Of a stretch of 64,000 nt of DNA, positions 52,377 to 56,235 are shown in pieces. The stretch comes from an uncultured Bacteroidota bacterium (GTDB lineage: Bacteria; Bacteroidota; Bacteroidia; UKL13-3), in the NCBI GenBank assembly GCA_903850915.1, contig CAINMV010000009.1, forward strand, positions 128,599 to 192,598. The letters run 5' to 3'. A model generated the notes under the pieces. It had not been told where the DNA came from. It was given only the letters and a program-made list of their open reading frames with translations, and did no database searches. The translations under genes and the position numbers were made by a program. Within the stretch, counting starts at the first letter, position 1; every line of letters starts with the position of its first letter.

Positions 52377-52447
52377 TAATTGTCAGTAAAAAAACATGAT
52401 TTTACCCGCTTAGGATTAACTAGATATAGTTAAATTTGCAACTCATT

Positions 52448-53125
52448 ATGTGGATACGAAAATATTGGTGGAAGTTACTCGGTGCGGGCTTTTTAATGTA
52501 TGCTCTGACTTATGGTTTATTATGCCCGGTTCCAGCGCTCGATATTACCAATGAAACTATCAGAAATTTATTTTATCATGTGCCGATGTGGTTTACCATG
52601 TATGCGCTTTTCACCTACTCGGTTTACCATTCCATTCAATATCTTCGAAGGGCTGTTGACGATCACGATATTCAGGCGCGTACGTCTGCCGAAATAGGGT
52701 TCTTATTTGGCGTAATGGGTATTGCAACGGGTAGTATTTGGGCTAAATATACCTGGGGTACTTACTGGGAACCGAAAGATCCCAAACTCAATGGTGCTGC
52801 AATAGCGTTGTTAATTTATTTAGCTTATTTTGTTTTACGAAGTGCCGTAGAAGACGAAACTAAACGTGCGCGTTTGGCCGCAGTTTACAATATATTTGCC
52901 TTCCCAATGCAACTCGCAGTTACGTATATAATGCCGAAATTTATGCTGTCGCTGCACCCTTCGAGTGCCGACACGGTTAGCTTTAAGCAATACGACTTAG
53001 ACTCCAAACTTCGTCTTGTTTTCTATCCTGCAGTAGCAGGCTGGGTTATACTCGGTTTTTGGATATTTACGCTTGTATATCGTTATCAACTTTTAAAAAT
53101 CAAATCTGAAAATGAAGAGAATTAA
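52448..53125 (+). CDS. ccmC: cytochrome c biogenesis protein CcmC/CcsA
   Basis: FYHVPMWFTMYALF, WAKYTWGTYWEPKDPKLNGAAIALLIYLAYFVLR (WWD-like). ATG 52448 preferred over track TTG 52436 inside TAAATTTG. Confidence 0.92.
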   Translation: MWIRKYWWKLLGAGFLMYALTYGLLCPVPALDITNETIRNLFYHVPMWFTMYALFTYSVYHSIQYLRRAVDDHDIQARTSAEIGFLFGVMGIATGSIWAKYTWGTYWEPKDPKLNGAAIALLIYLAYFVLRSAVEDETKRARLAAVYNIFAFPMQLAVTYIMPKFMLSLHPSSADTVSFKQYDLDSKLRLVFYPAVAGWVILGFWIFTLVYRYQLLKIKSENEEN

Positions 53126-53312
53126 ACTCTTGGTCTTAGCCATGTTTGCGTTTCTACTTGGCAATGCTCAAGATGCAGTGCCGGAAATGTCCGATGCCTT
53201 GCGTCAAAACGGCAAAATTTATGTAGTGGTAACAGTTATTGCTATTATCTTTACCGGTATTATATCCTACCTTATTTCCCTCGAACGTAAAATCTCTAAA
53301 CTAGAAAAATAA
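53112..53312 (+). CDS. CcmD-like small membrane protein
   Basis: 66 aa, signal/TM segments, between ccmC and ccmE, overlapping ccmC by 14 nt. Confidence 0.7.
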   Translation: MKRIKLLVLAMFAFLLGNAQDAVPEMSDALRQNGKIYVVVTVIAIIFTGIISYLISLERKISKLEK

Positions 53313-53316
53313 TAAT

Positions 53317-53694
53317 ATGAAACCACGTTATATCATTGCCCTTGTTTTTATTGCAGCTTCCATGGTTGCCGTTTTCAGCATTTATGGTAAAACAAGCACC
53401 TATTCTAACTTCACCGACTGTAAATCACATCCTGGCAAGGAGGTTCATATTGTAGGCATGCAAGTGAAAGAGAAAGGTACGGTTTACAATCCTCAAGAAA
53501 ATCCAAACTATTTTGCTTTTTATATCAAAGATGAGAAAGGCGATGAGTGCAAAGTAGAATTGGGAGACGCAAAGCCACAAGATTTTGATAAAGCGGAGCG
53601 TGTAGTGGTTATTGGCAATATGAGTGGTGATGTTTTTAAAGCATCTCAAATACTGATGAAGTGTCCAAGCAAATACAACAAAGAAAAAATATAA
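53317..53694 (+). CDS. ccmE: cytochrome c maturation protein CcmE (Cys variant)
   Basis: Position in the ccm cluster, OB-fold-like sequence, terminal ILMKCPSKYNKE where classical CcmE has HxxxY. Confidence 0.82.
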   Translation: MKPRYIIALVFIAASMVAVFSIYGKTSTYSNFTDCKSHPGKEVHIVGMQVKEKGTVYNPQENPNYFAFYIKDEKGDECKVELGDAKPQDFDKAERVVVIGNMSGDVFKASQILMKCPSKYNKEKI

Positions 53695-53802: not shown

Positions 53803-56235
53803 ATGCAAAATCAAGTTAATTTTATAGGCGAACATCTTACTATAGGCAACATCGGACACCTTGCTGTTGTTCTTTCCTTTACGCTTTCGCTATTGTCGTC
53901 GATAAGTTATTTTTTCGCTACTAGCGAGAAAGAGGAGAATACCACTTGGCTTAAGTTAGGGCGTTATGCCTTTTGGATTCAGTGTTTGACGGTGGCTACC
54001 GTTTTTTTTAGTTTATTTAAAATAATTTATAGCCATTATTACGAGTATCATTATGCCTGGTCGCATTCTTCAAATTTGTTGCCTGTAAAATACATGATTT
54101 CATGTTTTTGGGGTGGCCAAGAGGGTAGCTTTCTTTTATGGATAATTTGGCAGGCATTTTTAGGAGCCATGGTTATTTGGAAAGCCCCGAAAAGTTGGGA
54201 GCGACCAGTGATGACGATCGTAGCTTTAGCTCAGGTGATGCTAACCTCTATGATTCTAGGATCGTTGATAGGAGGTCTAAAAATTGGAAGTAGTCCTTTT
54301 ACTTTGTTGCGCGAAGCAATGACTGACGCGCCAATTTTCCATCAAGCCAACTATCTTGAATCGGTAAAAGATGGCAGCGGATTAAATCCCTTGTTACAAA
54401 ACAATTGGATGGTTATACATCCACCAACCTTGTTTTTTGGCTTTGCTTCTACTTTAGTGCCATTCGCCTTTGCCTTGGCGGGTTTATGGCAAAAGCGCTT
54501 TACCGAATGGATTAAACCTGCTTTACCTTGGGCATTAATAAGTTTAAGTGTTTTGGGAACAGGTATTATTATGGGTGCGATGTGGGCCTACGAAAGCCTC
54601 ACCTTTGGTGGCTATTGGAATTGGGATCCTGTTGAGAACGCATCTATTTTGCCTTGGTTGATTTTGGCTGCAGGTATTCATGGGATGGTAATTTATAATA
54701 GCACACAGAAAACAGCGCATACTACGATATTGTTGATTGTGATGTCCTTTCTTTCCGTACTATATGCTACGTTCTTAACTCGTAGTGGTATCCTTGGTGA
54801 TTCTTCAGTTCATTCCTTCACCGATCTTGGTTTGTCGGGTCAATTGCTACTTTGGCTTTTTGTTTTCATTGGCATCACAGGATATCTTGTGATAAAAACA
54901 TGGAAATTGTATGCTTCCAATAAAGAGGAAGACCAATTGAGTTCTCGTGAATTTTGGATGTTTATAGGCTCATTAGTACTGCTTTTGTCGGCTATTCATA
55001 TTGTGGCTGTTACTTCTATACCGGTTTATAATAAGATTGCAGCGCTGTTTAATATTGATTTAAAGATGGCTCCACCAACAGATCGCAATGAAGCGTATCA
55101 TTTTGTTCAGATACCAGTTTCGATTTTGATTGCTCTTGGATCTGCCTTTGCGCAATTTTTCAAGTACAGAAAAACCAACTCTTTGAAATCCTTTGGCATA
55201 AAAATGGGGATTTATTTTGGAGTTGCACTTATTGCTGGAGGTTTATTGTTTTATTACGCACAACTCGAAAAGTTGATTTATGGCATTTTGCTTGTTACAT
55301 CTCTATTTGCTGTTATTGCAAATACAGCCTTTATTTTTGATGTGCTAAAGCGAAACCTAAAGGCAGCAGGTGCTGCTATTTCGCATATTGGCTTTGCTTT
55401 AATACTCATTGGAGTTATATTCTCTTCAGTTAAGAAGAATGTTATCTCACAAAACAATTCAACTTTTTCTTTAGGGGATGAAAAGGCAAATCAGGAGAAT
55501 GTATTGTTGGAGAAAAACATGCCTATTCGGATGAAGAATTTTAAGGTAACGTATCTTGGGGATAGTAATGTGCCGCCGAATATTTTCTATAAAGTAAACT
55601 ACAAGAAAATGGATATCCATGATAGCGTTTTGGAAGAGTTTACTTTGTCGCCAAATGCTCAAATTAATCCTCAAATGGGGTTGATTGCCAACCCAGATAC
55701 CAAACACTATTTAAGCTATGATGTTTTTACACATGTAACAACTGTTCCTAAAAGCGAAATTGAAGGTAATGATACCGCGGGCCTAAAGAATGTAAAGACA
55801 CTTTGGGTTTCACCAGGCGATACATTATTTACGAGCTTGGCTTATGTTGTTTTCGACTCAGCAGAAATATTAACCAACACAGCAAAGAATAGATATGGTG
55901 CCGATCATCTTTTAGGTGCCAAATGTAGAATCTTCACCAAAAGAGGAGAGGAGTTTTTTATAGAGCCTTTGTTTGGTGTCAAAGGCGATGAAGGGGTGTA
56001 TATTGATGATAAATGCAAGGAAGCAGGTGTTTTGATGGGTTTTTTAAGTGTAAATCCATCCAATCAGCAAGTTCAACTTGCTATAGGAGAGAAGACTCCA
56101 GAACGTGATTTCATAATCATGAAAGCCATTGTTTTTCCATACATTAATATTCTTTGGCTAGGCTGTTTGCTTTTAGGTATCGGAACCTTTATTGCCTTTC
56201 TGCGCAGAGCTAAATTGGCGAAGAGTGAACTTTAA
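53803..56235 (+). CDS. ccmF: cytochrome c biogenesis protein CcmF/CcsA
   Basis: SCFWGGQEGSFLLWIIWQ, NWMVIHPPTLFFGFAS, WAYESLTFGGYWNWDPVENASILPWL (WWD), LTRSGILGDSSVHSF. Confidence 0.95.
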   Translation: MQNQVNFIGEHLTIGNIGHLAVVLSFTLSLLSSISYFFATSEKEENTTWLKLGRYAFWIQCLTVATVFFSLFKIIYSHYYEYHYAWSHSSNLLPVKYMISCFWGGQEGSFLLWIIWQAFLGAMVIWKAPKSWERPVMTIVALAQVMLTSMILGSLIGGLKIGSSPFTLLREAMTDAPIFHQANYLESVKDGSGLNPLLQNNWMVIHPPTLFFGFASTLVPFAFALAGLWQKRFTEWIKPALPWALISLSVLGTGIIMGAMWAYESLTFGGYWNWDPVENASILPWLILAAGIHGMVIYNSTQKTAHTTILLIVMSFLSVLYATFLTRSGILGDSSVHSFTDLGLSGQLLLWLFVFIGITGYLVIKTWKLYASNKEEDQLSSREFWMFIGSLVLLLSAIHIVAVTSIPVYNKIAALFNIDLKMAPPTDRNEAYHFVQIPVSILIALGSAFAQFFKYRKTNSLKSFGIKMGIYFGVALIAGGLLFYYAQLEKLIYGILLVTSLFAVIANTAFIFDVLKRNLKAAGAAISHIGFALILIGVIFSSVKKNVISQNNSTFSLGDEKANQENVLLEKNMPIRMKNFKVTYLGDSNVPPNIFYKVNYKKMDIHDSVLEEFTLSPNAQINPQMGLIANPDTKHYLSYDVFTHVTTVPKSEIEGNDTAGLKNVKTLWVSPGDTLFTSLAYVVFDSAEILTNTAKNRYGADHLLGAKCRIFTKRGEEFFIEPLFGVKGDEGVYIDDKCKEAGVLMGFLSVNPSNQQVQLAIGEKTPERDFIIMKAIVFPYINILWLGCLLLGIGTFIAFLRRAKLAKSEL

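Follow-up and report, generated by a model that had tools for sequence, protein, structure and literature searches.

The window, a 64,000-nucleotide stretch of Bacteroidota DNA, carries a gene for what is very probably an ordinary CcmE of cytochrome c maturation System I, in its Cys-type variant. The first-pass annotation had claimed CxxxY in place of HxxxY, and this is borne out. The open reading frame lies exactly at 53317–53694 on the + strand, its translation has the C-terminal end ASQILMKCPSKYNKEKI (the tail of the 125-residue product is also given as ILMKCPSKYNKEKI), and the haem-binding motif at residues 116–120 reads CPSKY, compared to HxxxY in classical CcmE. The gene is part of a cluster with the order ccmC–ccmD_alt–ccmE–ccmF:

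52436–53125, + strand: ccmC, membrane protein that handles haem in the CcmABCD release complex (PF01578, 72.9 bits)
53112–53312, + strand: ccmD_alt, small protein of 66 residues with a single transmembrane segment (PF20077 CcmD_alt, 73.6 bits, cut-off 23.5)
53317–53694, + strand: ccmE, ATG start, 125 residues; predicted periplasmic haem chaperone with an N-terminal membrane anchor, an OB fold and C116-P-S-K-Y120
53803–56235, + strand: ccmF, putative cytochrome c haem lyase of 810 residues with the haem motif WNWDPVENAS (PF01578, 91.4 bits)

The start of ccmD_alt overlaps the end of ccmC, and its reading frame stops 4 bases 5′ of ccmE. Annotation by eye from the open reading frames places an ispH/LytB-like gene upstream of the cluster and a PheT-like gene downstream. 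The window CcmC scores 75.9 bits against TIGR01191 (ccmC), under the cut-off of 186, and aligns with E. coli CcmC (7f02); the window CcmF scores 198.8 bits against TIGR03145, likewise under its cut-off, and aligns with Thermus CcmF (6zmq) at 1.6e-32. In relatives the order is ccmB-ccmC-ccmD-ccmE-ccmF, and there too ccmA, ccmG and ccmH are not beside the cluster. In 43 of 88 flanked loci a simple motif scan detected both CcmC ahead of CcmE and CcmF behind it; the patterns are narrow and the remaining loci should not be counted as negatives. The WWD motif of the window CcmC reads WGTYWEPKDPKL, with one residue more and a changed canonical W-D spacing. In most Bacteroidia CcmC loci the last Trp is replaced by N, A, S or D, for example WGAWWTNDVKL as compared to WGTWWVWDARL in E. 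coli.

The Pfam CcmE profile PF03100 matches the 53317–53694 product with 48.9 bits (8.9e-13), well over the cut-off of 24.6. The AlphaFold model, built on 61 sequences from the phylum, has a pLDDT of 86 and displays a helix at residues 3–23 followed by the strands of an OB barrel. Along with various other OB folds, a Foldseek search with this model retrieved the CcmE structures 1lm0, 1j6q, 8ce8 and 2kct; the superposition on 2KCT gives 1.9 Å over 81 columns with about 25% identity in the aligned part. The profile score above the curated cut-off, together with the modelled layout of membrane anchor and OB fold, supports membership of the CcmE family. A profile made from the window protein and seven relatives was also compared with PDB sequences. 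Its top match was the Cys-type CcmE of D. vulgaris (2KCT), the cysteine of which aligns with Cys116. In the same comparison Cys116 aligns with the region of the haem-binding histidine of E. coli CcmE (1sr3, 8ce8).

The usual picture assigns Cys-type CcmE to archaea and to a handful of bacteria, Desulfovibrio among them. In the GTDB phylum to which the host belongs CcmE was found in 264 of 393 genomes (168 of the 197 genomes of the class). A comparison of CcmE across Bacteroidota had been proposed as a check, and 210 loci drawn from many families, low-scoring ones included, were read here. The cysteine is present in all 210, and in 207 of these it stands in the sequence KCPSKY. Because of this invariance the cysteine of the window CcmE is neither a chance substitution nor a sequencing error; it is the norm for the phylum and no peculiarity of this genome. 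We found no statement of the phylum-wide Cys pattern in Bacteroidota CcmE in the open literature, in a partial coverage that left Allen 2006 and Goddard 2010 outside.

The second hallmark to consider is CcmH. The host genome (2.94 Mb, 99.65% complete) gave no PF03918 match and nothing similar at E 0.001, and the same search did detect its positive controls in E. coli, Caulobacter, Thermus and Deinobacterium. Among the 393 phylum genomes CcmH-family matches reached E 0.001 in 12 and passed the cut-off in 5. The five over the cut-off were considered as CcmH and rejected, being membrane proteins with multiple cysteines (zinc ribbons occur in several) and not classical CcmH. Most of the matches under the cut-off are of the same multi-Cys membrane type; in both groups one or two CcmH-like domains are present, and zinc ribbons are frequent. 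Two weak matches resemble sensor-kinase false matches. As judged from sequence, the Cys-type motif of the CcmE loci read thus goes hand in hand with the absence of a classical CcmH across the phylum sample.

In families f16, f18 and f36 of the phylum there are membrane proteins, many of them with N-terminal zinc ribbons, that carry one or two distant CcmH-like domains of the CxCGxC type (loci L048, L049, L050, L051, L052, L053, L054, L055, L056, L058 and L060). Such proteins give some substance to the view that a CcmH-like partner exists that is either too diverged for PF03918 or non-homologous, in which case the system would not be truly CcmH-free. We consider this rather unlikely, as nothing alike reaches E 0.001 in the host genome, and archaeal and D. 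desulfuricans systems function in the absence of CcmH.

The inventory of the whole genome bears on a further alternative, namely that a complete classical System I (His-type CcmE, CcmA-H) is encoded elsewhere and that the window CcmE is a spare, diverged paralogue. The dispersal of the ccm genes would be compatible with this, the only CcmB of the genome being encoded on contig 24, apart from the ccmC–ccmF cluster. However, the search of this nearly complete genome returned a single CcmE, no CcmH, and one CcmC and one CcmF, both of the window cluster, which are the only two PF01578 proteins; no further CcmC, CcmF or CcsA-type protein was found with this profile in the entire genome. Together with the invariance of the cysteine in the phylum loci this makes a spare paralogue very improbable. 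A second, classical CcmE and a full ccmA-H set elsewhere, which the first-pass annotation had named as the result that would overturn its proposal, were sought and are absent. Classical System I, recognized by an HxxxY CcmE and CcmH, was not found in the genome, nor was System II (CcsA/ResB), the latter judged on PF01578 alone. Finally, that the cysteine is a lineage quirk or a sign of decay, with loss of haem carriage, has in its favor the departure from the textbook HxxxY, but is refuted by the census; the conserved ccmB-C-D-E-F cluster in which relatives keep ccmE also speaks against it.

The preferred reading, a Cys-type CcmE in a variant System I, is consistent with the gene content deduced from sequence: a CxxxY CcmE that is the sole one in the genome, no CcmH-family match, and the presence of CcmB, CcmC and CcmF. 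The earlier suggestion of a variant pathway in Bacteroidota was broadly right. In the genome six cytochrome c domains score over the PF13442 cut-off, and CXXCH frames are found at all eight matched loci; therefore the pathway has substrates in the organism.

The identity of CcmA is less obvious. In the host genome 33 ABC ATPase places match TIGR01189, the CcmA equivalog, and none passes the cut-off; the same holds for all 197 Bacteroidia genomes, for each of which the best 15 candidates were scored. The strongest TIGR01189 matches were considered as CcmA and rejected. Genomes that lack CcmE (families f5, f12 and f13) score equally well, so that a TIGR01189 score alone cannot identify CcmA. Inspection of 30 Bacteroidia loci revealed no ATPase adjoining ccmB, except for one unrelated exporter half. 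A different candidate emerged from gene context. Family f72 has a stand-alone ATPase of 204 residues directly after lpxA, for which CcmA models give the highest scores (116.9 and 108.2 bits, the next model reaching 88.3). The same lpxA–ATPase pair is present on contig 15 of the host genome. Stand-alone ABC ATPases of about 205 residues, each directly behind lpxA, are encoded at:

L305, 3146–3763: the host ATPase on contig 15
L286, 1396–2010
L290, 1459–2073

The host protein has 205 residues and shares 36% identity with its f72 counterpart, far more than the other ATPases in the comparison do. Its score with the CcmA model is 93.7 bits, second to a bacteriocin-export model with 99.9 bits. The lpxA-linked ATPase, with its best CcmA score in f72, could be the CcmA that Bacteroidota seem to lack, a candidate that is plausible rather than identified. 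The first-pass annotation had noted that no CcmH, CcmA or CcmB is seen near ccmE. This stands for the cluster itself, and for CcmH it extends to the whole genome; for the other two it does not extend that far, and the argument from missing CcmA and CcmB fails, as ccmB is on contig 24 and the candidate ccmA on contig 15.

In one Bacteroidia family, f68, CcmB has an unusual architecture. These proteins are 303–312 residues long and have a CcmE-like OB domain inserted before the last transmembrane helix. The loci are:

L248, 1150–2085, − strand: long CcmB
L252, 1156–2073, − strand: long CcmB
L255, 633–1550, + strand: long CcmB
L258, 1459–2391, + strand: long CcmB

The inserted domain ends at the place of KCPSKY, and the motif itself is lost. 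At least one genome (G403) has a separate Cys-type CcmE (L116) besides the CcmB that bears the domain. The domain may represent a copy of CcmE that is built into CcmB for docking. A structure model of a CcmB with the insert had low confidence (pLDDT 52) and was left out of the fold search.

A System I variant with a CxxxY CcmE and no CcmH has been published (Allen et al. 2006 FEBS Lett 580:4827, as relayed by PMC4429474) and is also treated by Goddard et al. (2010 JBC 285:22882, as relayed by PMC3884852). The gene described here is ordinary for its phylum and belongs to this variant, known from archaea and Desulfovibrio. The systems agree in that cysteine replaces the haem-binding histidine, in the presence of CcmC, CcmE and CcmF, and in that CcmH was not found. 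They differ in that the host belongs to another phylum, that its ccmB and probably its ccmA are unlinked, that its CcmD is of the CcmD_alt family, and that the WWD motif of its CcmC is altered. The closest Cys-type relative of solved structure is D. vulgaris CcmE (2KCT), which shares the OB fold and the KCP motif; it binds haem non-covalently through the cysteine, unlike the D. desulfuricans protein (review PMC3884852). The CcmE of M. acetivorans also has a CXXXY motif in a system lacking CcmH, and its cysteine (Cys120) is needed for haem attachment and for protein stability (PMC9084895). However, CcmD is absent in archaea and present in the genome studied here. E. coli CcmE (1sr3, 8ce8) is of the same family and fold, but its motif is HxxxY, and CcmG and CcmH are its partners.

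In view of the above, the following pathway can be considered, which we infer from homology of the encoded proteins. With a CcmA-type ATPase as the source of power, CcmB, CcmC and CcmD would load haem onto CcmE in the periplasm. CcmE would hold the haem via Cys116, either covalently or as axial ligand, with Tyr120 as the second ligand. The haem would then be passed on to CcmF, and its attachment to CXXCH apocytochromes by CcmF would involve no CcmH subunit. It is possible, if somewhat doubtful, that the phylum as a whole uses such a CcmH-free System I, with a remodelled release site that combines a Cys-type chaperone with loss or shift of the last Trp in the WWD motif of CcmC, and with the ATPase gene located apart, beside lpxA. 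The phylum-wide rule and the oddities of CcmC and CcmB are of modest interest, and the single window gene adds little to them. As the census indicates that Cys-type CcmE is the rule in a large, common and genetically workable phylum, ordinary aerobic laboratory bacteria could serve for studies of the CcmH-free pathway.
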